Origin: Sphingomonas parva (ex Maeng et al. 2020)
Lineage (GTDB): Bacteria > Pseudomonadota > Alphaproteobacteria > Sphingomonadales > Sphingomonadaceae
DNA length: 64,000 bases
Assembly (NCBI RefSeq): GCF_004564275.1
Contig: NZ_SPDV01000018.1
Location: forward strand, 7,501-71,500
Direction of reading: 5' to 3'
Shown: one piece after another, positions 2,783 through 55,836 of the stretch
Layout: the number at the start of each line of letters is the position of its first letter
Numbering within the stretch: position 1 is the first letter of the stretch
Made by a program: the position numbers and the translations under genes
Notes under the pieces: model-generated
Told to the model about the DNA's origin: nothing
Databases searched by the model: none
Seen by the model: only the letters and a program-made list of their open reading frames with translations

Positions 2783-4147
2783 TCAGTAGCGGCTGTCGAA
2801 GGTGGCGGTGACGGTCGCCTCGCCGTTCGCCGGCACGGTGACCCGCCACAGGGTCTCGTCAGCCGACCGGCGGGTGCTCTTCTGGCTCTCGTTCACGATT
2901 CGCACGTCGCCCCAGAGTCCTCCCTGGATGAGGTCCACCGTGACCGCCTGCGGACGGGCATTGGTCAGGCGGTAGCGCATCGCGGTGCGCCAGCGGCTGT
3001 CCGACATCTTCTCGCGCCGCTCCACCACCGGCTGGACCTTGACGTCGAACGCCTGGCCGGTGGTGAGCCCGATGTCCGAGCCCATCGGCGTGTGGCCGAT
3101 CTGGCTTTCCCCGACGAACTGGGCATTGCCGCGCGAATCCTTTTGATAGACCCGCACCGTGCCGGCCGGCAGCGCATCGCCAAGCCCGGTGTCGCGGGCG
3201 CTGGAGAATTGCAGCACCGTGTCGGCGCTCTCCGCCTGGTCTGTCTTGCCGAGCCATTCGTTGCGGAAGACATAGGCGCGGCGGGCCGCGGCGCCGGCCA
3301 CATCGAGGAAGCTGACCTGCTTGGTCTGCTGATTTGCAATCGTCGTCCGCTCCTTCAGCGGATAGAGATAGAAGTCGCCAAGGCTCTCGCGATCGGGCGT
3401 CTCCATGCCGGGATTGAAGTTTCTGCGGCGGCCGCCCGAGTAACCGCCGTTGCCGCCCACCTCTCCGGCGACCAGCAAGGTGTCGGCGTTCGTGAAGGTC
3501 GTGCCGGTGGTGTTGGTCAGGGTCACCCAGCCCTGAACGTCGATCCGGCCGGCCTGCTCGTCGAACAGGGTGACGTAATCGGCCTTCCAGCTCATCCCCG
3601 GCGTGAGATAGCTCAGGGTGACCGGGCGGCTTCCGCCACGGCTGCTTTCCAGAGTGACCGAGAGGGTCGGGCGCGCCCGAAGATTCTCGGGCACCTTGTC
3701 GAAGATCACGCGGACCGGCAGGCCGTCGTCGCGCAGCACCTCGATGCGGCTGCCGATCTGCAGCACGACGCCGCCGTTGACCGCGAGCACGCGGGCGCGC
3801 TCCCGCTCCTCGGCGCCGGTCGCCGGATTGGTGCGAACGAGGGTGATCTCCTCGCCCACCGCTTTCTCCATCAACTTGGACGGGGAGAGGAGGTCGAAGT
3901 CGAAATTCTGCTCGACGATGGCGACGTCGCGCGCCGAAAGAGTCACCGTCTCGGGGCTGATCTGCCCGGAAACGTTCGGGAATTCCTGCCGCGAGCGCCC
4001 GCTCGGAATGTCGATCTCGCGCGTGTCCTGCACCAGCGCCAAATTCTGGTTGTAGATGGTGACCGAGACGTTGCCTTGGCCGGGAGGCTGCTGGGCGGCG
4101 GCGGGCGCCGCGACCGCGAAGACGGACAGCAGAAGCAGATGACGCAT
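2783..4147 (-). CDS. DUF4139 domain-containing secreted protein
   Basis: First gene of the DUF4139 run, 454 aa. The ATG at 4147 starts a standard signal peptide (MRHLLLLSVFAVAAPAAAQQ); an ATG six codons earlier would put extra residues before it. Recognisable landmarks are VTIYNQNLALVQDTREIDIPSG near the N-terminus (typical for DUF4139), LLSPSKLMEKAVGEEITL, PTLSVTLESS, LSYLTPGMSWKADYV, GWVTLTNTTGTTFTNADTLLVAGEV and a C-terminal WRVTVPANGEATVTATFDSRY. It is the most canonical of the three and the others look like diverged copies. A TTGACA hexamer lies about 55-60 bp upstream. Exported location is well supported; molecular function is not known for the family. Confidence 0.9.
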   Translation of the reverse strand: MRHLLLLSVFAVAAPAAAQQPPGQGNVSVTIYNQNLALVQDTREIDIPSGRSRQEFPNVSGQISPETVTLSARDVAIVEQNFDFDLLSPSKLMEKAVGEEITLVRTNPATGAEERERARVLAVNGGVVLQIGSRIEVLRDDGLPVRVIFDKVPENLRARPTLSVTLESSRGGSRPVTLSYLTPGMSWKADYVTLFDEQAGRIDVQGWVTLTNTTGTTFTNADTLLVAGEVGGNGGYSGGRRRNFNPGMETPDRESLGDFYLYPLKERTTIANQQTKQVSFLDVAGAAARRAYVFRNEWLGKTDQAESADTVLQFSSARDTGLGDALPAGTVRVYQKDSRGNAQFVGESQIGHTPMGSDIGLTTGQAFDVKVQPVVERREKMSDSRWRTAMRYRLTNARPQAVTVDLIQGGLWGDVRIVNESQKSTRRSADETLWRVTVPANGEATVTATFDSRY

Positions 4148-21611: not shown

Positions 21612-22983
21612 CAGCGTATTTGATCTCTTCAAGATCGGGGTCGGCCCGTCGAGCTCGCACACGATGGGCCCGATGACCGCCGCGTGCCGCTTTGTCGAGA
21701 CTCTGCAGCGCAAGGGACTGCTCGACCGCACCGCACGAATCGGCGTCGACCTTTACGGTTCGCTGGCGCTGACCGGCAAAGGCCATGCGACCGATCGGGC
21801 GGTGCTGCTCGGCCTCTCCGGCGAGCAGCCCGACCGGGTCGATCCCGACGAGGCCGAGGCAATCGTCGCGCGGATCCGCGAGAGCAAGCGGCTCCGGCTC
21901 GGCGGCGGGCACGAGATCGCTTTCGACGAGGCCGCCGACCTGCGCTTCCTTCAGCGCGAACGGCTGCCCCATCATTCGAACGGCATGCGCTTCACCGCCC
22001 ACGACGCAACCGGCGCCGCGATCGAGACTGCGGTCTATTACTCGACGGGCGGCGGCGCCGTTGTCGACGAGGCGGCGATCGCCCGCAATGCTCCGCCCGA
22101 AGGCGCGTGGGACGTCCCGTTCAACTATCTCTCCGCCGAGGAGCTGCTCGACGTGGCGGAGCGGGAGGGCCTCACCATCGCCGATGTCGCCCGCGCCAAC
22201 GAGCGCGCGGCCCTGTCGGACGAGGAGATCGACACGCGGCTCGGGGCAATCGAGGACGCGATGTCGCGCTGCATCGATCGCGGCATCGGCCAGGATGGGA
22301 TCCTGCCGGGCGGCCTGAAGGTGAAGAGGCGCGCGCCCGGCCTCTACAAACTGCTGCTCGACCGGGCCGAGCGGACGCTCTCCGATCCGCTGACCGTGAT
22401 CGACTGGGTGAACCTCTGGGCGCTGGCGGTGAACGAGGAGAATGCCGCCGGCGGCCGCGTGGTCACCGCCCCCACCAACGGCGCAGCGGGCATCGTGCCG
22501 GCGATCCTGCGCTATTATCAGAGGTTCACGCCGCGCTCGAACGAAGAGGGGGTTCGCACCTTCCTGCTGACCGCGGCGGCGATCGGTTCGCTGTTCAAGG
22601 AGAATGCGTCGATCTCGGGCGCCGAGGTCGGCTGCCAGGGAGAGGTCGGGGTCGCCTGCTCGATGGCCGCGGCGGGGCTGACCGCAGCGCTCGGTGGCAG
22701 CAATCGCCAGATCGAGAACGCCGCCGAGATCGGCATGGAGCACAATCTCGGCCTCACCTGCGATCCGGTCGGCGGGCTCGTCCAGGTGCCTTGCATCGAG
22801 CGCAACGCCGTCGGTGCTATCAAAGCGATTGAGGCCTCCCGACTCGCGCTCGTCGGAGATGGCTCGCACCGCGTCAGCCTCGACCAGGTGATCGAGACGA
22901 TGCGCAAGACCGGCCTCGACATGAACGAGCGCTACAAGGAGACCGCCCAGGGCGGTCTCGCCGTCAACGTCGTCGAGTGCTGA
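21604..22983 (+). CDS. sdaA: L-serine ammonia-lyase (iron-sulfur type)
   Basis: Converts L-serine to pyruvate and ammonia using a 4Fe-4S cluster. Start is TTG at 21604, preceded by GGGAGAG; the N-terminus [23 protein letters not shown] is exactly the family start. Cluster cysteines are seen in [18 protein letters not shown] and [31 protein letters not shown] is also diagnostic. Length 459 aa, single-chain (alpha and beta domains fused). It diverges from the pabB-pabC gene with no spacer, so each gene's promoter must lie inside the other's 5' end. Confidence 0.96.
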
Positions 22984-44359: not shown

Positions 44360-45466
44360 TCAGCCCTTGATGAAGGACTCGAGCGCCGCGTGGGCCTCGT
44401 CGTCGGTGGTCTGGATCGGGGGGTGCTTGCAGAAATAGGCCGCCGCCGGGTGGATCGGGCCGGCGAGCCCGCGGTCCTTGGCGATCTTGGCGCAGCGAAT
44501 CATGTCGATCGCGACGCCGGCCGAGTTCGGGCTGTCCTCGACGCTGAGGCGAAGCTCGATGTTCATCGGCACGCCGCCGAACAGCTGGCCTTCCATGCGC
44601 AGGAAGCAGACCTTGTTGTCGTTCTGCCAGGCGACATAGTCGCTCGGGCCGACGTGGATGTTCTCGTCGTCGAGCCGGTGCTCGGCGACCGACTGAACCG
44701 CCTCGGTCTTCGAAACCTTCTTGGACGCGAGCCGCTTGCGGTTCGACATGTTGAGGAAGTCGGTGTTGCCGCCGGTGTTGAGCTGGTAGGTCCGATCGAG
44801 CTTCACACCGCGCTTGTGGAACAGATCGGTCAAAACACGGTGGACGATGGTGGCGCCGAGCTGGGCCTTGATGTCATCGCCGATGATCGGCACGCCGGCA
44901 TCCTGGAAGCGCTTCGCCCAAGCCTCGTTCGAAGCGATGAAGACCGGGATGTTGTTGACGAAGGCGACACCCGCCTCGAGTGCGCACTCGGCGTAGAACT
45001 CCGTCGCTTCCTGGCTGCCTACCGGAAGGTAGTTCATCAGCACGTCGGTGCCGGTCTCCTTCAGGCGGCGGACGACGTCGGCTTTCTCGGGCTGGGCAAT
45101 GTCGGCGACCAGGAAGGTGCGATCGGCCGGAGCCTCCGCCATGTGGTCCGAATAGCCGTCGAGCACCCGGCCCATTTCGACCGTCACGCCGGACGCCGGC
45201 ACGTGATCGCAGAACACGGCGGTGCAGTTCGGCTTCTCGAAGATCGCCTCGGCGACGTCGCGGCCGACCTTGCGCCGATCGATGTCCCAGGCGGCGACGA
45301 CAGTGATGTCCTTCGGACGATAGCCGCCCATGTCCCAGTGCATGAGACCGATCTGCTCGTTGGCGCCGCCATTCTGATAATGAGCGATGCCCTGGACGAG
45401 CGAGCTTGCGCAGTTGCCCACGCCGACGATGGCGATGTTGATCGCCTTGGGATCGTGGAGGCTCAT
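44360..45466 (-). CDS. ino1: myo-inositol-1-phosphate synthase
   Basis: Converts glucose 6-phosphate to myo-inositol 1-phosphate with NAD+. 368 aa, of the shorter actinobacterial/archaeal type. NAD-binding IAIVGVGNCASSLVQGIAHY (~11-30); NYLPVGSQEATEFYAECAL, FVNNIPVFIAS, GDDIKAQLGATIVHR, QLNTGGNTDFLNM and NRKRLASKKVSKTEAV are family signatures including the catalytic lysines. Its ATG overlaps the glycosidase TGA as TGATG. De novo inositol synthesis is uncommon in proteobacteria, so it points to an inositol-containing product made by this cluster. Confidence 0.95.
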   Translation of the reverse strand: MSLHDPKAINIAIVGVGNCASSLVQGIAHYQNGGANEQIGLMHWDMGGYRPKDITVVAAWDIDRRKVGRDVAEAIFEKPNCTAVFCDHVPASGVTVEMGRVLDGYSDHMAEAPADRTFLVADIAQPEKADVVRRLKETGTDVLMNYLPVGSQEATEFYAECALEAGVAFVNNIPVFIASNEAWAKRFQDAGVPIIGDDIKAQLGATIVHRVLTDLFHKRGVKLDRTYQLNTGGNTDFLNMSNRKRLASKKVSKTEAVQSVAEHRLDDENIHVGPSDYVAWQNDNKVCFLRMEGQLFGGVPMNIELRLSVEDSPNSAGVAIDMIRCAKIAKDRGLAGPIHPAAAYFCKHPPIQTTDDEAHAALESFIKG

Positions 45467-46383
45467 CAGGCGACCGCCTTGCGCTGCTGGGCGGGGGCGT
45501 AGCGCTCGATCATGCGGGCGCAGAAATCAGCGAAATACATCGGATCCTTCGGTGGGCTGGTGTGGTGGGGCTGAATGCCCTCGGACTCGGGCGTGAAGCA
45601 GAAGGTGACGGTGGTCTCGAATTCCTCGAGCGCCTCCATCTGACGATCGAACCAGGCTTCCCAGCCGGGGCGGTAGCTATCCGCCCAGCTGAGCCCGGTC
45701 CGCAAATGCGTGACACCAAGCCGTTTCAGCCAGGCGACAGCGTCGTCCAGCCGCGGATCCTCGAAGTGGAACCACTGCATGATGCCCATGTGCGGGGTGT
45801 GCGCCCGAAAGTGATCGAGCGCAAGCTTGGGCGTACCGTCCTCACGGATTAAGCCCATGTAGAAATGGCGATAATAGCTCGACCCCTCGGCTTCCTTGTG
45901 CCGGGTCGTGGCGCCCCAGGCCTGGGGAAGATCGTAGAGCGAATACCAGAAGATGCGGGGCACGCGGCCGACCAGCAGCTCGGCCGTACGGTCGACTCCG
46001 AAGACCTGGACCTCCTCGGCGCCGAAGCTGCCGACGCCGACTTCGGTCGCCCAGATCTCGTGATCGGGAGCAACCGCCTCGATCTCGGCGATCTTCTGCG
46101 GCCATTCCTGGATCGGCCAGAGGTTCCAGTCGAGCGGGAAGCCGTGAACGGCAATCACGTCAACATGATCGAGGACACCGTGGCCGCGCAGCTTTTCGAT
46201 GAAGAACGGATCGATCGGCGAGATGCCGCCAAGCACGCGCTTCACGTCCGGGTTGACCGCCTGGATGGCCTTGGCGGCCTCGATCACGGTCGTCCCGAAC
46301 AGGCTCCAATCTGGGTCAATCTCCGGGTCCCAATGCGACTTGTTGTTGGGCTCGTTCCAGATCATGGCCGCTTCGATGGACAA
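45466..46383 (-). CDS. GH39/clan-A-like glycosidase, apparently circularly permuted
   Basis: A 305-aa TIM-barrel protein. TTG start at 46383, preceded by GAGGTG; no upstream extension is possible because the methyltransferase stop is in the same frame two codons before. The protein opens at once with the acid/base motif MIWNEPN (residues 7-13, normally strand 4), continues to the nucleophile strand WATEVGVG (E~113) and the last-strand-like FWYSLYD, then the usual C-terminal LIREDGTPKLALDHF. Only after that, from ~198, comes MGIMQWFHFEDPRLDDAVAW, LGVTHLRTGLSW, TVTFCFTPESEG and FADFCARMIERYA, which is what normally precedes WNEPN. All catalytic residues are kept. Substrate unknown. Confidence 0.82.
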   Translation of the reverse strand: MSIEAAMIWNEPNNKSHWDPEIDPDWSLFGTTVIEAAKAIQAVNPDVKRVLGGISPIDPFFIEKLRGHGVLDHVDVIAVHGFPLDWNLWPIQEWPQKIAEIEAVAPDHEIWATEVGVGSFGAEEVQVFGVDRTAELLVGRVPRIFWYSLYDLPQAWGATTRHKEAEGSSYYRHFYMGLIREDGTPKLALDHFRAHTPHMGIMQWFHFEDPRLDDAVAWLKRLGVTHLRTGLSWADSYRPGWEAWFDRQMEALEEFETTVTFCFTPESEGIQPHHTSPPKDPMYFADFCARMIERYAPAQQRKAVA

Positions 46384-46386
46384 ATT

Positions 46387-47169
46387 TCACCTCTTCTTTG
46401 GGTAGACCGCCCCGGTTCCCCACGCTGCATAAGGCATTTCCGCGCGACGGCAAATGTAGACCTCGTCCTCGGCGCGCGTTTCTATCGCGAAGCCGGAAGC
46501 GCGCAGCATCGCTTCGGCGCAGGCGCGGTTCGGCACCCACCAATTCGTCCAGTCATGAGCATATTCGCGCTCGACGAAATGGAGCCTGGGATAGCCGCTC
46601 TCGTGGAAGATGCCGGTCTCCTCGAACGGATAGTCCTCCTCGAGCGGGAGGACCGAGCCGGAGCCGCGCTGCATCGACTGGAAAATCAGGAGATCGCCGG
46701 CGACGTGCTCGTGGATGAGATCGAGTGCGAGCAGCGGGTGGCGCAGGTGATAGAGCACGCCCATGAAGATCACGACGTCGAACCGCTCGCCCAGGGCCGC
46801 GACGTCGTAGACCGAGAGATTGCGGAACTCGATATTGTCGTAGCCCAGCGTGGTCGCGGCGAAGCGCGCCTGCTCGAGATAACGATCGTCGCTGTCGATG
46901 CCGACGACCCGCTCGGCGCCGCGCCGCTTCATTTCCATCGAGTAGAAGCCGGCGTTGCAGCCGATGTCGAGGACGCTCTTGCCGCTGAGATCCTTCGGAA
47001 GGTGCGGCGCGAAGCGCTTGAACTTCGAACCGGGATAATCGCCGAGGAAATGATCGGGCGCGGTCCACACTCCGCCGAGATCGATGTTGTGGAACCAGGG
47101 GCCGAGCGCGTCGATGCGCTCGCGAAGCTCCTTGGCTTCCGGCTCGATGCTTCGTGCGGCAACGTTCAT
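46387..47169 (-). CDS. SAM-dependent methyltransferase (CmoB-like)
   Basis: A 260-aa class I methyltransferase. ATG at 47169 overlaps the phosphatase stop (ATGA). N-terminal helical lead ELRERIDALGPWFHNIDLGGVWTAPDHFLGDYPGSKFKRF, SAM site VLDIGCNAGFYSMEMKRRG (~65-80), VVGIDSDDRYLEQA and FDVVIFMGVLYHLRHPLLAL follow the CmoB/DUF1698 pattern. C-terminal ANWWVPN-like NWWVPNRACAEAMLRASGF. Methyl acceptor unknown; in this operon a sugar or cyclitol is plausible. Its TGA is followed by AAT and then the TTG start of the glycosidase in the same frame. Confidence 0.9.
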   Translation of the reverse strand: MNVAARSIEPEAKELRERIDALGPWFHNIDLGGVWTAPDHFLGDYPGSKFKRFAPHLPKDLSGKSVLDIGCNAGFYSMEMKRRGAERVVGIDSDDRYLEQARFAATTLGYDNIEFRNLSVYDVAALGERFDVVIFMGVLYHLRHPLLALDLIHEHVAGDLLIFQSMQRGSGSVLPLEEDYPFEETGIFHESGYPRLHFVEREYAHDWTNWWVPNRACAEAMLRASGFAIETRAEDEVYICRRAEMPYAAWGTGAVYPKKR

Positions 47170-47765
47170 TGGTAGAGCCTTTCGTTGACGGTCATGATGC
47201 GCGCCCCCCAATCGCCCAGTGCGAGGCGGGACACGGAAGCCGGATCGACGTCGAAGCGCAGCATGTTCTCGAGCGGCAGGCCGAGATAATGCGCGATGAC
47301 GCCGCGGATGATGTCGCAATGGCTGACGCAGGCGATCGTTGCACCCTCGTGCTCGACGGCGAGCTCAGCGAGCGCGGCGGTGACCCGATCGACCGCCTCG
47401 GCCATGCCCTCGCCGTTCGGCGGGCGGGCGCTGCCGCGCCGCTCGTTCCACTCGGTCCAGAGCGGATCGCCCTCGAGCTCGCTGAAGCCGCGGCCGGTCC
47501 AGTCGCCGAAATCGAGCTCGTCGAGGCGATCATCGACGACCACCTTCAGCTCGTGCGGCTCGGCGATCGCGCGTGCGGTGTAATAGGCTCGCTCGCGAGG
47601 CGAAGCGTAGACGGCGGCGAGCGGCTCGACGCCGAGGAGATCGCCGACGATCTGCGCCTGATCGAGCCCTTCGCGGCTCAGCGCGACGTCGCGGCGCCGG
47701 CCGGAGAGGACTCGGCCGAGCTCGACGTGCGCGGCATGCCGGATCAAAAAGATGGTCGCCGTCAC
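47166..47765 (-). CDS. histidine phosphatase (phosphoglycerate-mutase-like)
   Basis: A 199-aa phosphatase. GTG start at 47765 gives TATIFLIRHAAHVE with the catalytic RH; further motifs ALSREGLDQAQ, VYASPRERAYYTA, DELDFGDWTG and the second histidine in IACVSHCDIIRG. GpgP-type relatives remove phosphate from sugar phosphates. As first gene of the ino1 operon it might dephosphorylate inositol phosphate or a phosphorylated glycoside; that is inference. Confidence 0.9.
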   Translation of the reverse strand: MTATIFLIRHAAHVELGRVLSGRRRDVALSREGLDQAQIVGDLLGVEPLAAVYASPRERAYYTARAIAEPHELKVVVDDRLDELDFGDWTGRGFSELEGDPLWTEWNERRGSARPPNGEGMAEAVDRVTAALAELAVEHEGATIACVSHCDIIRGVIAHYLGLPLENMLRFDVDPASVSRLALGDWGARIMTVNERLYQ

Positions 47766-47803
47766 GCTCGATCGATGCCGTCCTGAAACCCTTCGTACCG
47801 CGC

Positions 47804-47829
47804 AAACCGACCGCCGCGTGCGGGGTTCC
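47804..47829 (-). promoter_or_regulatory. EcfG-type (general stress) promoter candidate, leftward operon
   Basis: On the minus strand GGAAC (47829-47825), 16 bp, then GGTTT (GTTT at 47807-47804), matching GGAAC-N16/17-cGTT of the alphaproteobacterial general stress sigma factor except for one base. It sits about 40 bp before the phosphatase GTG. The rest of the 47766-48067 gap holds the rightward promoter and no gene. Confidence 0.5.
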
Positions 47830-47961
47830 GCCAGCCTGAAGCCAGCGCAGGCATGGCACGGGCAGGCATCGCGCCGCACTGATCCAAGTTAAGCTCAAGT
47901 GCCGGAAATTGCCTCGATTTCGCCGCGGGACTTGTGATTCGAGCCGAGTCTTTGCGCGCAC

Positions 47962-47988
47962 GGAACAAAGCTGCCGAGTCCTGTGTTT
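47962..47988 (+). promoter_or_regulatory. EcfG-type promoter candidate, rightward operon
   Basis: GGAAC (47962-47966), 17 bp, TGTTT (47984-47988): GGAAC-N17-tGTT. It lies ~80 bp before the first epimerase gene, with an A/G-rich leader (GAAGAAGAAGAAGCAGCAACG) between. Confidence 0.55.
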
Positions 47989-48067
47989 GGGGAAGAAGAA
48001 GAAGCAGCAACGAAGAGGAAAACCGGGCTTCGCGCCAGGGAAACCTCGACAAGAAACGGGGGTACAA

Positions 48068-49183
48068 TTGCCGGAACGGATCCTCATCACCGGCGGCGCC
48101 GGCTTTATCGGGCGCGCGGTCACCAAGGAACTTCAGCAGCGCGGACACGAAGTCCGCATCCTCGACAGCCTGATAGAGCAGGTGCACGGCGACCGCGAGC
48201 GGCCGGAGGACCTTTCCGACGACGTCGAACTGATCCGCGCCGACGTGCGCAACGGCGATGCGGTCACCAAGGCACTGAAGGGCATCGACAGCGTCATCCA
48301 CCTCGCCGCCGAGGTCGGCGTCGGTCAGTCGATGTATGCGGTCGAGCGCTACACCTCGGTCAACGACGTCGGCACGGCGGTGCTTTTCGAGAAGCTGATC
48401 GACAATCCGGTCCGCCGGGTCGTGACCGCCTCGTCGATGAGCATCTACGGCGAAGGCCTCTACGTGGACGGAGACGGTAATCAGGTTCAGGAAGCGAAGC
48501 GCCAGGTGCGCACCAGCGAGGCGCAGAGCTGGGATCCCATCGATGCGCAGGGCCGACCGCTAAAGCCGATCGCCACCCCCGAGTGGAAGCGCCCCGATCT
48601 CGCCTCGATCTACGCGCTCAACAAATACGTCCAGGAGCGCACCACCCTGATCATGTCCGAGGCCTACGGCATCGAGGGCGCGTGCCTGAGGCTGTTCAAC
48701 GTCTACGGCCCCGGCCAGGCGCTCTCCAACCCTTACACCGGGGTGCTCGCGATCTTCGCCTCGCGCCTGCTCAACGGGCAGCAGCCGATGATTTTCGAGG
48801 ACGGCGAGCAACGCCGCGACTTCGTCTATGTCGGCGACGTGGCCCGGGCCTTCGCCGATGCGCTGGAACTGCCCCAGGCGGTGGGCCAGACGTTCAACAT
48901 CGGCTCCGGCCATGACCGCTCGGTCACCGAGGTGGCGCAGGAGCTCGCCCGCGCGATGGGCAAGAACGACATTTCGCCTCAGATCGCCGGCAAGACCCGC
49001 ATCGGCGACATCCGCCATTGCTTCTGCGACGGCAGCAAAAGCGCCGACGTGCTCGGCTTCCGCGCGCAGAAGGACTTCCAGGAAGGCCTCGGCGAGCTCG
49101 CCGAATGGGTGGCGGTGCAGACCGCCGACGACAGGGTCGAGCAGGCGCGGGCCGAGCTCGAGGCGCGAGGACTCGTCGCGTGA
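48068..49183 (+). CDS. dTDP-L-rhamnose 4-epimerase-like NAD-dependent epimerase
   Basis: Extended SDR nucleotide-sugar enzyme, 371 aa, starting with TTG at 48068 (no in-frame ATG or GTG nearby). NAD site ITGGAGFIG; catalytic SSMSIYGEG and YALNK (~183-187). QVHGDRERPEDL, EVGVGQSMYAVERYTSVND, GPGQALSNPYTGVLAIFASR and FEDGEQRRDFVYVGDVA closely follow the dTDP-L-rhamnose 4-epimerase subgroup, which makes dTDP-6-deoxy-L-talose; that exact substrate is inference. It leads a six-gene run of overlapping cistrons. Confidence 0.85.
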   Translation: MPERILITGGAGFIGRAVTKELQQRGHEVRILDSLIEQVHGDRERPEDLSDDVELIRADVRNGDAVTKALKGIDSVIHLAAEVGVGQSMYAVERYTSVNDVGTAVLFEKLIDNPVRRVVTASSMSIYGEGLYVDGDGNQVQEAKRQVRTSEAQSWDPIDAQGRPLKPIATPEWKRPDLASIYALNKYVQERTTLIMSEAYGIEGACLRLFNVYGPGQALSNPYTGVLAIFASRLLNGQQPMIFEDGEQRRDFVYVGDVARAFADALELPQAVGQTFNIGSGHDRSVTEVAQELARAMGKNDISPQIAGKTRIGDIRHCFCDGSKSADVLGFRAQKDFQEGLGELAEWVAVQTADDRVEQARAELEARGLVA

Positions 49184-50289
49184 GCCGCGGCGACGAGAGG
49201 AGCGAGGCCGACACCGGCCCCGTCCTGGTCACCGGGGGGGCGGGCTTCATCGGCTGCAACATCGCCAACCGCCTGGCCGAGCTCGGCCACGAGGTGCTGG
49301 TCTATGACGCGCTCACCCGCCCCGGCGTGGAGCGCAATCTCGCCTGGCTGAAGGAGCGGCACGGCGAGCAGGTGCAGGCGATCATCGCCGACATCCGCGA
49401 CGAGGACGAGCTCGCCCGCGCCGCCCGCGAGGCCAAGGCGGTGTTCCACATGGCCGCGCAGGTTGCTGTGACCACGTCGATGATCGACCCGCGCGAGGAT
49501 TTCGAGATCAACATCCGCGGCACGCTGAACCTGCTCGACGCAGTGCGACTGAAAGGCGACCGGACACCGGTCATCTTCGCCTCGACCAACAAGGTCTACG
49601 GCGATCTCGGCGATCTCGACTTTCGTCTGGACGGCGACAAATACGTGCCGATGGACGGCGAGATCGCGGCGCGCGGTATCGGCGAGCAGCGCCCGCTCGA
49701 TTTCCACACGCCCTACGGCTGCTCCAAGGGCGCGGCCGACCAATATGTTCTCGATTACGCCCGCAGCTTCGGCCTCGCCACCGCCGTGGTGCGGATGAGC
49801 TGCATCTACGGCATGCGGCAGATGGGCACGGAGGACCAGGGCTGGGTCGCGCATTTCCTGATCCGCGCGCTCGAAGGCAAGACGATCACCCTTTACGGCG
49901 ACGGCTGTCAGGTTCGCGACATCCTCGACGTCTCGAATGCCGTCGAGGCCTATCTCAAGGCGTGGGAGCGGATCGATGCGATCCAGGGCCATGCCTTCAA
50001 TCTCGGCGGCGGGCCGGAGAATTCGGTCTCGCTGCGCGAGCTCCTCTCCCATATCGGCCAGCTGACCGGCCGCGAGGTGGACGTCGAATTCTCCGACTGG
50101 CGCGCGGGCGACCAGCGCTATTTCGTCGCCGACACACGCCGAATCCGCAGCGCGCTCGGCCTTTCGCCGGCGGTGCCGTGGAAGGAGGGGGTCGCACGCC
50201 TCGCCGAGTGGCTGCGCGAAAGCCGCGCGCCGAGCGCCGAGTTCATCGCCGCGACGACCGGCGTCGTGCCGGCGGGAGCGGCCTCGTGA
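49180..50289 (+). CDS. CDP-paratose 2-epimerase-like NAD-dependent epimerase
   Basis: 369-aa extended SDR; GTG start overlaps the previous stop (GTGA). VTGGAGFIGCNIANRLAELG, DALTRPGVERNLAWL, HMAAQVAVTTSMIDPREDFE, FASTNKVYGDLGD and YGCSK (~181-185) match the CDP-paratose 2-epimerase (RfbE) branch, which normally forms CDP-tyvelose. The CDP-sugar precursor genes are not nearby, so the true substrate may be a different NDP-sugar. Overlaps the next gene as GTGA. Confidence 0.85.
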   Translation: MSRGDERSEADTGPVLVTGGAGFIGCNIANRLAELGHEVLVYDALTRPGVERNLAWLKERHGEQVQAIIADIRDEDELARAAREAKAVFHMAAQVAVTTSMIDPREDFEINIRGTLNLLDAVRLKGDRTPVIFASTNKVYGDLGDLDFRLDGDKYVPMDGEIAARGIGEQRPLDFHTPYGCSKGAADQYVLDYARSFGLATAVVRMSCIYGMRQMGTEDQGWVAHFLIRALEGKTITLYGDGCQVRDILDVSNAVEAYLKAWERIDAIQGHAFNLGGGPENSVSLRELLSHIGQLTGREVDVEFSDWRAGDQRYFVADTRRIRSALGLSPAVPWKEGVARLAEWLRESRAPSAEFIAATTGVVPAGAAS

Positions 50290-51407
50290 GCGGCGGCCAC
50301 CTCCGCATCCTGATCACCGCCGACGCAGTCGGCGGGGTCTGGCAATACAGCACCGAGCTCGCCGCCGGCCTGGCCCAGCTCGGCATCGAGACGGTGCTGG
50401 CGGTCATGGGACCCTCGCCATCCGAAGCGCAGCGCAATGCGGCGATGCGAATCCCGGGACTCACCCTGGTCGATACCGGCCTCGCGCTCGACTGGCTGGC
50501 CGAGAACCGCTCGGCCCTGCGCCGCGCCGGCTCGGCGATCCGCGAGCTTGCCGAGGACCATGAGGTCGACGTGATCCAGCTCAACACGCCGGCGCTGGCC
50601 GGCGCGGTGCGGTTCGACCGGCCGGTGGTCGCCGTTCAGCACAGCTGCGTGGCGACCTGGTGGGAGGCGGTGCAGGGCACGCCGCTGCCGCAGGACTTCA
50701 CCTGGCGCACGAAGCTGGTCCGCACGGGTCTCCACGCCGCCGATGCGGTGGTCACGCCAACAGCGGCGTTCGGCGCCGCGGTCCAGCGCCGCTACGACCT
50801 GCCGGAGGCGCCGCGCACCGTCCACAACGGCCGCACGCCGCTGCGGATCGATCGCGGCGCGCCGCACGATTTCGTCTTCACCGCCGGGCGGCTGTGGGAC
50901 CGCGGCAAGAACCTGGGCACGATCGACGCCGCCGCCGCGCGGCTCGGCGTCCCTGTGCATGCCGCGGGGCCGGTGCGCGGGCCCCACGGCGAGGAGGTGG
51001 TGTTCGACAACATCCATTGCCTCGGCGCGCTCGACGAGAGCGAGCTCGGCCGCTGGCTCACCGCCCGACCGGTGTTCGTCTCCGCCGCGCTCTACGAGCC
51101 GTTCGGCCTGGCGGTGCTCGAGGCAGCAGCCGCCGGCTGCCCGCTGATCCTCTCCGACATACCGACCTTCCGTGAGCTGTGGGACGGCGTCGCCAGGTTC
51201 GTCGCCCCGCGCGACGAAGCGGGATTCACCCGCGCGATCGCCGAGCTGGTCGGCGACGATTTCGAGCGCGCGGTCATGGGCAAGGCGGCCCGCGACCGCG
51301 CCGCGCGCTTCACCCCGGAGGCTATGGCCGCGCAAATGGCCTCGATCTACCGCAGCCTGCTGCCGGCGGTGAACCGGCCGGTGCTCGCGTCGAGGGCGGC
51401 GGCGTGA
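50286..51407 (+). CDS. GT4-type glycosyltransferase
   Basis: 373-aa GT-B fold enzyme. N-terminal acceptor domain RILITADAVGGVWQYSTELAAGLAQLG; donor domain FTAGRLWDRGKNLGTIDAAAARL and the E-x7-E-like motif SAALYEPFGLAVLEAAAAGCPLILS. MshA and sucrose-synthase-like enzymes share this plan. GTG start overlaps the epimerase; with Ino1 nearby an inositol-phosphate acceptor is conceivable. Confidence 0.9.
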   Translation: MSGGHLRILITADAVGGVWQYSTELAAGLAQLGIETVLAVMGPSPSEAQRNAAMRIPGLTLVDTGLALDWLAENRSALRRAGSAIRELAEDHEVDVIQLNTPALAGAVRFDRPVVAVQHSCVATWWEAVQGTPLPQDFTWRTKLVRTGLHAADAVVTPTAAFGAAVQRRYDLPEAPRTVHNGRTPLRIDRGAPHDFVFTAGRLWDRGKNLGTIDAAAARLGVPVHAAGPVRGPHGEEVVFDNIHCLGALDESELGRWLTARPVFVSAALYEPFGLAVLEAAAAGCPLILSDIPTFRELWDGVARFVAPRDEAGFTRAIAELVGDDFERAVMGKAARDRAARFTPEAMAAQMASIYRSLLPAVNRPVLASRAAA

Positions 51408-52528
51408 GGATCACCTATTTCACCCATTCACTGGCTTCCTGCTGGAATCACGGCAACGCCCATTTTCTGCGCGGCGTGCTGCGCGAGCTGATCGCCCGCG
51501 GGCACGAGGTAACGGCGTGGGAGCCGGAGGGCGCGTGGAGCCTCGAGAATCTGCTCGCCGACCATGGCGAGGCGGGGCTCGCCGCTTATCGGGAAGCTTA
51601 TCCCGAGCTCTCCTCCCGAACCTTCGCGGCCGAGACGGATCCGGCGGAGCTGGTCGACGGGGCCGACGTGGTGATCGTCCACGAGTGGAACGATCCCGCA
51701 CTGGTGGCCCAAATCGGCCGTCTGCGCGCCGCCGGGGGGCGCTTCACCCTGCTGTTCCACGACACGCACCACCGCGCCGTCTCCGAGCCCGACGCGATCC
51801 AAGCCTTCGACCTCTCCGGCTATGACGGCGTGCTCGCCTTCGGCGAGACACTGGCGGAGGTCTATCGCGGCTGGGGATGGGGCGGCCGGGAGTTCGTCTG
51901 GCACGAGGCCGCCGACCTCCGTTTGTTCCACCCGCCCGAGGAGGAGGGACCGCGAGAGGGCCTGGTCTGGATCGGTAATTGGGGCGACGGCGAGCGCACC
52001 CGGGAGATCGAGGATTTCCTCCTTGCCCCCGCCCGCACCGCGCGGCTGCCACTGGACATATACGGTGTGCGTTACCCAGCCGAGGCGAAGAGCCTTCTCG
52101 AGCGCTACGGCGTCAATTATCGAGGTTGGCTGGCCAACGCGCGGGCCCCGCAGGTGTTCGCGCGCCATCTGGCGACGGTGCACGTGCCGCGGCGCTTCTA
52201 CACCACGATCCTGCCGGGCATCCCGACCATAAGGGTATTCGAGGCGCTCGCCTGCGGCATCCCGCTCGCCTCCGCCCCGTGGGACGACAGCGAAGGGCTG
52301 TTCCGGCCGGGGCAGGACTTTCTGTTCGCGCGCTCCGGGGCGGAAATGACGCGGACGCTCGTGGCGCTGCGCGAGGATGCGGCGCTGCGCGCCTCGCTCG
52401 TCGCCAGCGGGCTCGAGACGATCCGCGCCCGCCACACCTGCGGCCACCGCGCCGACGAGCTGCTCGCCATCCTCGCCACCCTCAACACGCGCGCCGCGGC
52501 GCCGCTCGACGTGAGACTCACCGCATGA
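51404..52528 (+). CDS. CgeB-like glycosyltransferase, copy 1
   Basis: 374-aa GT-B protein of the CgeB (COG4641) type, GTG start overlapping the previous gene. Begins RITYFTHSLASCWNHGNAHFLRGVLRELIARGHEVTAWEPEGAWS. C-terminal donor site region RRFYTTILPGIPTIRVFEALACGIPLAS followed by DDSEGLFRPGQDFLFA. First of three tandem relatives that share the N-terminal S-x-x-W-x-x-G-x-A-x5-R-x-L pattern. Donor and acceptor unknown. Confidence 0.85.
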   Translation: MRITYFTHSLASCWNHGNAHFLRGVLRELIARGHEVTAWEPEGAWSLENLLADHGEAGLAAYREAYPELSSRTFAAETDPAELVDGADVVIVHEWNDPALVAQIGRLRAAGGRFTLLFHDTHHRAVSEPDAIQAFDLSGYDGVLAFGETLAEVYRGWGWGGREFVWHEAADLRLFHPPEEEGPREGLVWIGNWGDGERTREIEDFLLAPARTARLPLDIYGVRYPAEAKSLLERYGVNYRGWLANARAPQVFARHLATVHVPRRFYTTILPGIPTIRVFEALACGIPLASAPWDDSEGLFRPGQDFLFARSGAEMTRTLVALREDAALRASLVASGLETIRARHTCGHRADELLAILATLNTRAAAPLDVRLTA

Positions 52529-53613
52529 AGATCGCCTTCTACGGCTCCAGCCTGCTCTCTTCCTACTGGAACGGCGCCGCGACCTATTATCGGGGGCTGC
52601 TGCGCGACCTCGCCGCACGCGGCTACCAGATCACCTTCTACGAGCCCGACGCTTTCGACCGGCAGAAGCACAAGGACATCGATCCGCCCGAATGGGCCCG
52701 GTCGGTGGTCTATGCGGCGACGCCCGAGGGGCTGCGCGCCGTGCTCGACGAGGCCAAGGCGGCCGACATCGTCGTCAAGGCGAACGGCGTCGGCGTGTTC
52801 GACACCGAGCTTCTCGAGGGCATCGTCGCCCACAGCCGGGAGGACGCGCTCCGGATCTTCTGGGACGTCGACGCCGCAGCGACCCTCGACGAAATGCGCG
52901 CCGACGAGAGCCATGTCGTACGCCGCACTCTGCCCAGGCTCGACATGGTGCTGACCTATGGCGGCGGTCCGCCGGTGGTCGACGCCTATTCCGGCTTCGG
53001 CGCGCGGCGCTGCGTGCCGATCTACAATGCGCTCGACGCCAGCACCCACCATCCGGTGGCGCCGGACCCCGCCTTTTCCGCCGACCTCGCCTTCCTCGGC
53101 AACCGGCTCCCCGACCGTGAGGCGCGGGTCGAGGAATTCTTCCGGAAGGCGGCGGCCGCGCTCCCCGAGCGGCGCTTCCTGATCGGCGGCAACGGCTGGG
53201 AGACGAAGGGGATGCCGGACAACGTGCGCCACCTCGGCCACGTCTACACCCATCAGCACAATGCCTTCAATTGCACGCCGCTGGCCGTGCTCAACGTCGC
53301 CCGCGATTCGATGGCCGACGTCGGCTTCTCGCCGGCGACCCGGGTGTTCGAGGCGGCTGGCGCCGCAGCCTGCCTGATCACCGACGCCTGGGAGGGGATC
53401 GAGATGTTCCTCACCCCCGACGAGGAGGTGCTCGTCGCCCGCGACGGGCAGGACGTCGCCGATCATGTCGCCGCGCTGACGCCGGAGCGGGCGCGGGCGA
53501 TCGGTGCCCGGGCGCTGGAGCGGATCCTGGCCGAGCACACCTACACCCATCGCGGCGAGCAGGTGGACGCCCTGTGGCGGGAATCGCTGCAGCCGGAACG
53601 GAGCGCGGCCTGA
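52525..53613 (+). CDS. CgeB-like glycosyltransferase, copy 2
   Basis: 362 aa, ATG overlapping the previous TGA (ATGA). N-terminus KIAFYGSSLLSSYWNGAATYYRGLLRDLAARGYQITFYEPDAFDRQ parallels copies 1 and 3. Donor region LNVARDSMADVGFSPATRVFEAAGAAACLITDAWEGIEMF is the CgeB signature, with the F-E-A motif. Predicted cytoplasmic. Confidence 0.87.
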   Translation: MKIAFYGSSLLSSYWNGAATYYRGLLRDLAARGYQITFYEPDAFDRQKHKDIDPPEWARSVVYAATPEGLRAVLDEAKAADIVVKANGVGVFDTELLEGIVAHSREDALRIFWDVDAAATLDEMRADESHVVRRTLPRLDMVLTYGGGPPVVDAYSGFGARRCVPIYNALDASTHHPVAPDPAFSADLAFLGNRLPDREARVEEFFRKAAAALPERRFLIGGNGWETKGMPDNVRHLGHVYTHQHNAFNCTPLAVLNVARDSMADVGFSPATRVFEAAGAAACLITDAWEGIEMFLTPDEEVLVARDGQDVADHVAALTPERARAIGARALERILAEHTYTHRGEQVDALWRESLQPERSAA

Positions 53614-54704
53614 TGCGGCTGGTCGTCCTCGGCCTCAGCCTCTCCTCGAGCTGGGGGAATGGCCACGCCACGACCTTTCGCGCGCTGCTCAAGGCGTTCG
53701 CGGCGCGCGGTCATGACATCCTGTTCCTGGAGCGGGAGGTCCCCTGGTATGCGGCGAACCGCGACGTCACCGATCCGGACTATTGTCGTCTCGAATATTA
53801 TGCCGACCTCGAGCGGCTCGAGGCGTGGCGGGACGAGATCGCCGGCGCCGATGCGGTGATCGTCGGCTCCTACGTTCCGGAAGGCGTTGCCGTCGCACGG
53901 TTCGTCCAGGCCCATGCGCGGGGCGTCACCGCCTTCTACGACATCGACACGCCTGTGACGCTCGCCAAGCTGGAGAGGGGCGATTTCGAGTATCTCTCGC
54001 CGGAGGTGATCCCCGGCTACGACGTCTATCTTTCCTTCACCGGCGGGCCGACCCTGCGCCACATCGAGCGGCACTACGGATCGCCGGCGGCGCGGGCGCT
54101 CTACTGCTCGGTCGATCCGGAGGCCTATCCGCCGCTCGACGTCGAGAAGCGCTGGGACCTCTCCTATCTCGGGACCTACAGCCCCGATCGCCAGCCGACG
54201 CTCGAGCGGCTGCTGATCGAGCCGGCGCGGCGCATGCCGGAGCGCCGCTTCGTCGTCGCCGGCCCGCAATATCCGGCCGACATCGACTGGCCGGCGAATG
54301 TCGAGCGGATCGAGCATCTGCCGCCCGCCGACCACCCCGCTTTCTACTCGGCCTCCCTGTTCACGCTGAACGTAACACGCGCCGACATGATCGCCGCCGG
54401 CTGGTCGCCCTCGGTGCGGCTGTTCGAGGCGGCGGCCTCGGCGGTGCCGGTCATCTCCGATCGCTGGCAAGGTCTCGACAGCCTGTTCGCGCCGGGACGC
54501 GAGATCGTCCTTGCCGACGGACCGGACGAGGTCGTCCGCCGGCTCCAGCAGGGCGACGCGGCGACCGCCGCCGGCATCGGACGGGCGGCGCGCGAGAGGG
54601 TGATGCACGGCCATCGCGCGGCCGACCGCGCCGCGGAGCTCGAGTCCCATCTCGAGGAGGCGGCGGCGGCGCGGCCGCGCCCCCGACTGGAGGCGGCGTG
54701 CTGA
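53613..54704 (+). CDS. CgeB-like glycosyltransferase, copy 3
   Basis: 363 aa, start fused to the previous stop as TGATG. N-terminus RLVVLGLSLSSSWGNGHATTFRALLKAFAARGHDILFLEREVPWY; donor region LNVTRADMIAAGWSPSVRLFEAAASAVPVISDRWQGLDSLF. Most similar to copy 2. The central YDIDTPVTLAKLERGDFEYLS resembles the matching FWDVDAAATLDEM of copy 2. Last gene of the overlapping run. Confidence 0.87.
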   Translation: MRLVVLGLSLSSSWGNGHATTFRALLKAFAARGHDILFLEREVPWYAANRDVTDPDYCRLEYYADLERLEAWRDEIAGADAVIVGSYVPEGVAVARFVQAHARGVTAFYDIDTPVTLAKLERGDFEYLSPEVIPGYDVYLSFTGGPTLRHIERHYGSPAARALYCSVDPEAYPPLDVEKRWDLSYLGTYSPDRQPTLERLLIEPARRMPERRFVVAGPQYPADIDWPANVERIEHLPPADHPAFYSASLFTLNVTRADMIAAGWSPSVRLFEAAASAVPVISDRWQGLDSLFAPGREIVLADGPDEVVRRLQQGDAATAAGIGRAARERVMHGHRAADRAAELESHLEEAAAARPRPRLEAAC

Positions 54705-54731
54705 TGAAGACGTAATCTTTCGTTGGGGAGG

Positions 54732-54758
54732 TGAACCAAGCCGGGGGGCGCGGTGTTT
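54732..54758 (+). promoter_or_regulatory. weak EcfG-like promoter before the decarboxylase gene
   Basis: TGAAC (54732-54736), 17 bp, TGTTT (54754-54758): the same spacing and downstream box as the promoter at 47962 but with one mismatch in the upstream box. It lies in the 109-bp gap before the UXS-like gene. Confidence 0.35.
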
Positions 54759-54813
54759 AGGTAAGTTGTTGTCGGCTTCGGAAAAACGACCCATGGAACA
54801 AGGGAGCAGCCTC

Positions 54814-55836
54814 GTGAAAATTGCAAACAAGAAGACTGCTTTGGTAACCGGCGGCGCAGGCTTCATCGGCTCCCATTTGATCGATTCATTGTTGGCGGAA
54901 GGCGCGACCGTGGTCTGCCTCGACAGTCTGCTGACCGGCCGCGAGAAGAATCTGCGCCATCTGCAGCGCGAGGCGCGGTTCGACTTGATTCAGGCGGACA
55001 TCATCGACGCGCTGCCGCGAACGGTGGCGCGGACCGCCTTCACCCATGTCTACAATCTCGCCTGCGCGGCCTCGCCGCCGCATTACCAGGCCGATCCCGA
55101 GCATACGATGCTGACCAATGTCGTCGGCACCCGCAACCTGCTGCGCCTGGCCGAGGAGAAGAAGGCGCGCTTCCTGCTGACCTCGACAAGCGAGGTCTAT
55201 GGCGATCCCGAGGTCCATCCCCAGCCGGAGAGCTACCGCGGCTGGGTGAGCTGCACCGGCCCGCGGGCCTGTTACGACGAGGGCAAGCGCGCCGCCGAGA
55301 CTTTGACCTTCGACTATCAGCGCATGCGACGCGCCGACGTGCGGGTGGCGCGGATCTTCAACACCTACGGACCGCGGATGCGCCCCGACGACGGCCGCGT
55401 CGTTTCCAACGTGATCTGCCAGGCGCTCGCCGGCGACGACATCACCGTCTATGGCGACGGATCGCAGACCCGCAGCTTCTGCTACGTCTCCGACCTCGTC
55501 GCAGGGCTGATGCGGCTGATGGACAGCGACGTGACCGACGGCCCGGTCAATCTCGGCAACCCGGTCGAGCTCACCGTCTCCGATCTGGTCGAGCGGGTGG
55601 TGCGGATGACCGGATCGACCTCGCGCATCGTCAACCGGCCGCTGCCCGTCGACGACCCGCGCCGCCGCAAGCCGAACATCGAGCGGGCCAAGGCGCTGCT
55701 CGGCTGGGAGCCGCGAGTGGCGCTGCAGCAGGGACTGGAGGCGACCGCCGCCTGGTTCGCCGAAGAGCAGGCCGAGGCCCGCCCCGCCGAGCGCGAGGCC
55801 CGCGAGGAGCTGATGGTCGAGGTCGCCGCGGAATAA
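54814..55836 (+). CDS. UDP-glucuronate decarboxylase (UDP-xylose synthase)-like SDR
   Basis: 340 aa from the GTG at 54814, which has AGGGAG 7 bp upstream; an ATG at 54793 lacks one. LVTGGAGFIGSHLIDSLL, NLACAASPPHYQADPEHTM, TSTSEVYGDPEVHPQPESYRG, GPRACYDEGKRAAETL (catalytic YxxxK ~153) and FNTYGPRMRPDDGRVVSN are UXS signatures. The usual ACPASP is ACAASP here. It would supply UDP-xylose or a related sugar to the cluster's transferases. The C-terminus has an extra acidic tail. Confidence 0.9.
   Translation: MKIANKKTALVTGGAGFIGSHLIDSLLAEGATVVCLDSLLTGREKNLRHLQREARFDLIQADIIDALPRTVARTAFTHVYNLACAASPPHYQADPEHTMLTNVVGTRNLLRLAEEKKARFLLTSTSEVYGDPEVHPQPESYRGWVSCTGPRACYDEGKRAAETLTFDYQRMRRADVRVARIFNTYGPRMRPDDGRVVSNVICQALAGDDITVYGDGSQTRSFCYVSDLVAGLMRLMDSDVTDGPVNLGNPVELTVSDLVERVVRMTGSTSRIVNRPLPVDDPRRRKPNIERAKALLGWEPRVALQQGLEATAAWFAEEQAEARPAEREAREELMVEVAAE

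Follow-up and report, generated by a model that had tools for sequence, protein, structure and literature searches.

The general stress response of Alphaproteobacteria acts through the sigma factor EcfG, which also goes under the group names SigT and ECF15; under stress, phosphorylated PhyR takes NepR off the EcfG sigma factor. The promoters of this type that are closest to the locus considered here are those of Sphingopyxis granuli TFA and Sphingomonas melonis Fr1. In S. granuli TFA, the commonest -10 variants after CGTT are TGTT, CATT, and GGTT, and less transcript is obtained in vitro from the non-consensus boxes, as described in the sections of PMC7083833 that are drawn on here. In S. melonis Fr1, genes under EcfG control show an enrichment of their motifs at distances of up to 100 bp from the coding sequence (PMC6599016, again for the sections used).

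The window, by which the whole 64-kb stretch of analysed DNA is meant, contains two sites of this type in the gap between two divergent operons. The site facing the phosphatase operon (47804..47829, minus strand) has the -35 box GGAAC at 47829-47825, a 16-bp spacer, and the -10 box GGTT(T) at 47808-47804, and the site facing the epimerase operon (47962..47988, plus strand) has GGAAC at 47962-47966, a 17-bp spacer, and TGTT(T) at 47984-47988. The gap itself (47766-48067) is 302 bp long and is flanked by the first codons at 47765 (GTG, minus strand) and 48068 (TTG, plus strand), the distance from the end of the NGTT box to the first codon being 39 bases for the phosphatase operon and 80 bases for the epimerase operon. 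This is in agreement with the preliminary description of this DNA, which had placed GGAAC-N16-gGTTT on the minus strand and GGAAC-N17-tGTTT on the plus strand of one 302-bp gap, 40-80 bp from the first codon of each operon, with a single mismatch to the consensus: the -35 box is exact in both predicted promoters, and each site is one base off GGAAC-N16/17-CGTT. Neither -10 box is the CGTT optimum, and both GGTT and TGTT are published sphingomonad variants. When both strands of the 64-kb window are searched, GGAAC-N15..18-NGTT is matched by these two sites only, and the number of N16/17 matches expected per window is 1.35 (sd 1.25; 60 simulations with a second-order Markov model of the window). 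Scanning of the gap for the sigma-70 consensus gives no match, which is a weak test in this organism.

In the GGAAC box, the N16/17 spacers, the NGTT box (as GGTT or TGTT), and the distance of less than 100 bp to the coding sequence, the sites resemble the EcfG promoters of S. granuli TFA and S. melonis Fr1. The locus differs from those systems in that the divergent pair would serve both halves of one biosynthetic cluster and in that the plus promoter of the relatives often has a conserved GAA-triplet spacer, with little else like it in the genomes tested. Both sites are highly likely to function as promoters in the general stress response of Alphaproteobacteria, and, judged from the sequence comparisons below, the 11-gene cluster is very probably a direct target of this response. 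A conserved biosynthetic cluster of 11 genes would thereby be added to its probable direct targets.

The general-stress machinery of the host

The general-stress locus of the host is compact, one strand carrying nepR together with a HisKA_2 kinase gene and the other phyR followed by an ECF sigma gene (L031, L219). The NepR protein scores above its profile cut-off, PhyR is also present, and the sigma factor exceeds the cut-offs of PhyR_sigma2 (PF22029), Sigma70_r2 (PF04542), and Sigma70_r4_2 (PF08281); from the PhyR_sigma2 similarity and the position beside phyR, it is assigned as EcfG-like. GGAAC-N16-TGTT is found on the nepR side (L031), in the same form as the plus site of the window, and GGAAC-N16-CGTT is found in the interval between phyR and the sigma gene. 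The nepR promoter, however, drives regulators, whereas the sites of the window face a biosynthetic cluster. Among the 50 cluster-bearing genomes sampled (50 of the 62 records first tried), NepR is found in 49. The earlier assignment of EcfG-type promoters to both operons is thus supported by the conserved boxes, spacing, and orientation described below, by the presence of NepR, PhyR, and the sigma factor in the host, and by the GGTT and TGTT boxes published as -10 sequences for a sphingomonad. As a separate observation, a small open frame (2799-2996) accompanies the GGAAC-N16-CGTT site at L031: 2803-2827 (plus strand), in the interval that separates phyR from the EcfG-like sigma gene.

Conservation of the two sites in orthologous gaps

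Orthologues of epimerase 1 were found at E<=1e-80 in 40 of the 249 genomes of the family, host included, and 78 named loci, mostly of Sphingomonas, Novosphingobium, and Paracoccus, came from the species genome collection. Removal of four repeat copies of the same contigs from the 110 loci with an epimerase-1 match leaves 106, of which 14 were left out for having no phosphatase neighbour across a gap of 60-420 bp; in the other 92, the phosphatase is divergent to epimerase 1 over such a gap, as in the window. Four near-duplicates were dropped, so that 88 gaps, including that of the window, were counted; these are related to each other, and the counts are not independent trials. A strict site was defined as GGAAC-N16/17 followed by NGTT or CATT, and 200 dinucleotide shuffles and the backward-read pattern were used as controls.

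A strict plus-facing site, directed toward the epimerase operon, occurs in 67 of the 88 gaps (shuffles: mean 0.8, maximum 4), and a strict match of any kind on the minus strand occurs in 38 (shuffles: mean 0.6, maximum 3). When mere reverse readings of the plus site are removed, 27 gaps have a minus-facing site of their own, located 26-63 bp from the first codon of the phosphatase. The backward pattern is found in one of the 88 gaps on each strand, and with NGTT alone, excluding CATT and before removal of the reverse readings, the counts are 54 (plus) and 35 (minus). The strict plus site is absent from 21 gaps and a separate minus site from 61; in Paracoccus, the strict plus site is present in only 3 of 14 gaps and a minus site of its own in 0 of 14, though NepR is found in 14 of 14, and outside Paracoccus, ten further gaps have no strict plus site.

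Both sites are kept in all five closest relatives holding the gap (L062, L063, L064, L134, and L135), whose epimerase 1 is 86-94% identical to that of the window and whose gap DNA is 47-53% identical, and only the plus site is kept in the next closest relative (L065, 82% identity). As to spacing, GTT follows a plus-strand GGAAC (n=111) 41 times at spacer 16, 15 times at spacer 17, and at most four times at any other spacer from 10 to 24, and for the minus-strand GGAAC (n=54) these numbers are 21, 16, and at most five. A single palindromic bidirectional promoter in place of the pair was considered and is not claimed; the plus site is also readable on the other strand in 11 of the 67 gaps that have it, a share close to what is expected from the frequency of CC after GTT (about 0.1 by our own arithmetic). 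The two promoter sites of L104, from a record titled Microvirga sp. SRT01, are closely like those of Sphingomonas sp. Leaf343 (L113), and the record name may be wrong.

That the sites are chance matches in GC-rich intergenic DNA is the least probable of the explanations weighed here, and is considered extremely improbable, although the weakness of the genome-wide excess of the pattern speaks for it. In the host genome, the NGTT pattern is matched 148 times and its backward reading 121 times; for the CGTT pattern, the counts are 53 and 47. The count of GGAAC-N16/17-NGTT over the genome, which had been proposed as a check on the background, therefore gives no useful excess as a test. At the density of the host, the probability that one 302-bp gap holds an outward pair is about 2.5e-5 (own arithmetic); over divergent gaps assumed to number on the order of a thousand, the rarity of the pair is suggestive and not decisive. 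The preliminary argument that two outward matches are unlikely by chance is accordingly weak as far as it draws on one genome, because the pattern is hardly in excess genome-wide; it is the orthologue comparison, with its counts, drifted gaps, and spacing peak, that excludes chance. Chance is refuted by the composition-preserving shuffles for the plus site and for the separate minus site alike, and the 115-fold density contrast between the gaps (114 sites in 18,350 bases) and the other, mostly coding bases of the same loci (49 in 909,865) argues against it too. Through comparison, a weak one-genome pattern thus becomes a strong prediction. A sorting of 30 genome matches into intergenic and coding by codon score was set aside as unreliable, since the control locus L031 was under-called. 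Elsewhere in the host, on contig C68, there is a second outward pair of GGAAC-N16-CGTT sites, at 21998-22022 (minus strand) and 22140-22164 (plus strand), 117 bp apart.

The sites could in principle be read mainly not by EcfG but by another sigma factor of the ECF type that recognises GGAAC as its -35 box. GGAAC-like -35 boxes are common to many ECF groups, and the host has 15 Sigma70_r4_2 matches, 13 of them over the cut-off; the AAC triplet is described as near-invariant among ECF -35 boxes in the sections of PMC7083833 used here. This explanation is nevertheless improbable. The -10 sequences, for which no selection was made, are NGTT or CATT at spacers 16-17, which matches the sphingomonad EcfG set published in the same sections, and the nepR promoter of the host is of this form too.

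A Crp/Fnr-type box and a GAA-triplet element in the gap

Between the two predicted EcfG promoters lies a candidate Crp/Fnr-type box, CTGATCCAAGTTAA (47879..47892), with one mismatch to TTRAY-N4-RTYAA. This relaxed box is exact in 23 of the 88 gaps (shuffles 0.6) and is present with at most one mismatch in 48 (shuffles 6.3), and the strict box TTGAY-N4-RTCAA is exact in 13 (shuffles 0.1); when the spacing is changed to N3 or N5, none of the 88 gaps has an exact match. In Sphingomonas deserti (L062), the exact box TTGATCCAGATCAA is found at nearly the same place as the box of the window. A box of this type, TTGAc/t-N4-g/aTCAA, is published for Fnr of S. granuli TFA (PMC7713065, in the part used). 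A second input through the Crp/Fnr-type box is likely. It is even conceivable that a Crp/Fnr-family regulator is the main control, the EcfG sites being secondary, or that EcfG acts via a Crp-type regulator in a feed-forward arrangement. The exact boxes and their fixed N4 spacing favour this explanation, as does a short host gene with a Crp-type HTH (L240 on contig C9, open frame 1315-1842, no other Pfam domain found), which has a consensus GGAAC-N17-CGTT site of its own at L240:1237-1262, 52 bases before the open frame. Since this gene has a CGTT-type EcfG site and the top EcfG-dependent genes tabulated for S. melonis Fr1 include one of the Crp type (PMC6599016, sections used), a feed-forward chain from EcfG over a Crp-type regulator to the cluster is possible. 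The place of the box relative to the promoters varies among the gaps, however, the window's own box has a mismatch, and the 15 Crp-type HTH matches in the host do not single out a binder. The two inputs are also compatible with each other, and Crp/Fnr control as the main control is regarded as rather unlikely, with EcfG remaining the preferred direct regulator.

The second conserved feature is the GAA-triplet element GAAGAAGAAGAAGCAGC (47992..48008, plus strand), just downstream of the plus -10 box in the window and in four of its five nearest relatives. The form GAAGAAGAAG, with GAA or GAT triplets, is found in 34 of the 88 gaps (shuffles 0.0), and many relatives have the element within their plus-promoter spacer; in several Paracoccus gaps the GAA element stands beside GCAAC. 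One could read the stretch from GGAAC to GAAGAAG as a ribosome-binding site and the start of a leader peptide instead of a promoter, and some species do read GGAACAAAGATGAAGAAG, which is like a start region. An ATG is missing in many species, though, including that of the window, and the AAG frame does not stay open for clearly longer than another one (median 26.5 versus 21.5 codons to the stop in 66 gaps). Since the start codon is not kept, and a frame not clearly so, the leader peptide is rejected as very improbable, and the promoter reading is retained.

A role of the GAA element as a regulon-wide binding site was also considered and rejected. In 14 genomes, GGAACAAAGAWGAWGAAG with at most two mismatches has only 16 matches, from zero to two per genome, distributed over 12 of the 14 genomes. 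All eight matches with zero or one mismatch lie in this gap, as does one of the eight with two mismatches. Within the 14 genomes tested, the GAA element is almost confined to this locus, and a spacer element so restricted poses a question on promoter spacers that goes beyond the consensus. The place of the GAA/GAT element shifts relative to the promoter, and further examples are seen at L095:5871-5895 and in the L084 gap.

The gene cluster and its possible product

The minus-strand set consists of four tightly packed genes and the plus-strand set of seven genes (48068-55836); neighbours overlap or are almost contiguous, the one wider space being that before the last gene. From this packing, we infer that the whole 11-gene cluster would be under EcfG; EcfG binding, the extents of the operons, and the nature of the product are predictions. 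In the proposed mechanism, stress would lead to removal of NepR by phosphorylated PhyR, and EcfG set free in this way would direct RNA polymerase to transcribe both sets. Leftward transcription would cover the histidine phosphatase (47166..47765, minus strand; PF00300, E 1.8e-47), the TIGR04290 family methyltransferase (46387..47169, minus strand; 380.3 bits, over the cut-off of 300), a GH39/PslG-related (beta/alpha)8-barrel protein (45466..46383, minus strand), and the inositol-3-phosphate synthase (44360..45466, minus strand; PDB 1gr0, E 3.6e-123). Rightward transcription would cover two NAD-dependent epimerase/dehydratases (48068..49183, with the TTG start set by homology, and 49180..50289, both plus strand and PF01370), four glycosyltransferases, and the UDP-glucuronate decarboxylase (UDP-xylose synthase; 54793..55836, plus strand; PDB 4gll and 2b69, E about 7e-101). 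Glycosyltransferase 1 (50286..51407, plus strand) is of the GT4 type (PF13439, PF13692), and glycosyltransferases 2 (51404..52528), 3 (52525..53613), and 4 (53613..54704), also on the plus strand, match PF13524. In this way, stress would jointly raise the two halves of a single inositol/xylose glycoconjugate pathway.

The combination of an inositol-3-phosphate synthase, a weakly MshA-like GT4 enzyme, and a phosphatase in one cluster recalls the first steps of the mycothiol pathway. The similarity of glycosyltransferase 1 to MshA (TIGR03449) stays below the cut-off, with 39.2 versus 462.5 bits, and so does that of the synthase to the mycothiol-type inositol synthase (TIGR03450), with 457.5 versus 638 bits, the latter protein still being plainly an inositol-3-phosphate synthase homologue. 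The cluster departs from the mycothiol pathway in also having a UDP-xylose synthase, a methyltransferase, three further glycosyltransferases, and the hydrolase-like barrel protein; among its 11 genes, no gene for a ligase, an acetyltransferase, export, or a polymerase is recognised. The best guess from these families is that the product may be an inositol oligosaccharide or glycolipid that is methylated and carries xylose. More tentatively, sphingomonads and Paracoccus might share a conserved stress-induced pathway to an undescribed methylated xylose-containing inositol glycoside, with mycothiol-like logic and no thiol ligation. The single regulatory hub of this pathway would unite the two divergent EcfG promoters with the locus-specific GAA element and with a Crp/Fnr-type box that is served by a Crp regulator under EcfG control; this wider proposal is possible but doubtful.

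The promoter type is known, and the cluster and its product appear to be little studied. In the sections of the S. melonis EcfG study that are drawn on here, the word 'epimerase' is absent and the cluster is not recognisable; the genes listed there as EcfG-dependent do include the glycosyltransferase genes #3505-3509, and an exopolysaccharide gene is named as well (PMC6599016); the parts of PMC3238334 and PMC4219479 that were used make no mention of 'epimerase' or 'inositol'. The literature searched contained no paper visibly describing this cluster or its control by stress and none naming TIGR04290, which is no proof that the cluster is undescribed. The locus points to a stress-linked sugar-inositol product, and this can be tested in Sphingomonas melonis, whose ecfG deletions are in print.

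The barrel protein of the minus-strand set is probably circularly permuted. Its profile match to PslG covers only residues 4-155, corresponding to chain positions 132-301, and the C-terminal half gives weak beta-glucosidase/GH1 profile matches (E 0.14 and above, mixed with nanobodies), on account of which the permutation is not proven. Fold searches with the model (m20a1af4246a5) return general TIM-barrel matches, the best being a designed barrel (Z 13.2, rmsd 3.7 over 217 residues), with the rows nearly tied and no family assigned. The model itself has eight strands at a mean pLDDT of 85, with WNEPNN at the first strand and TEVG at the fourth, a spacing that we take to be that of the two catalytic glutamates of the GH-A clan, and on this model the protein looks like a circularly permuted GH-A/GH39 barrel.
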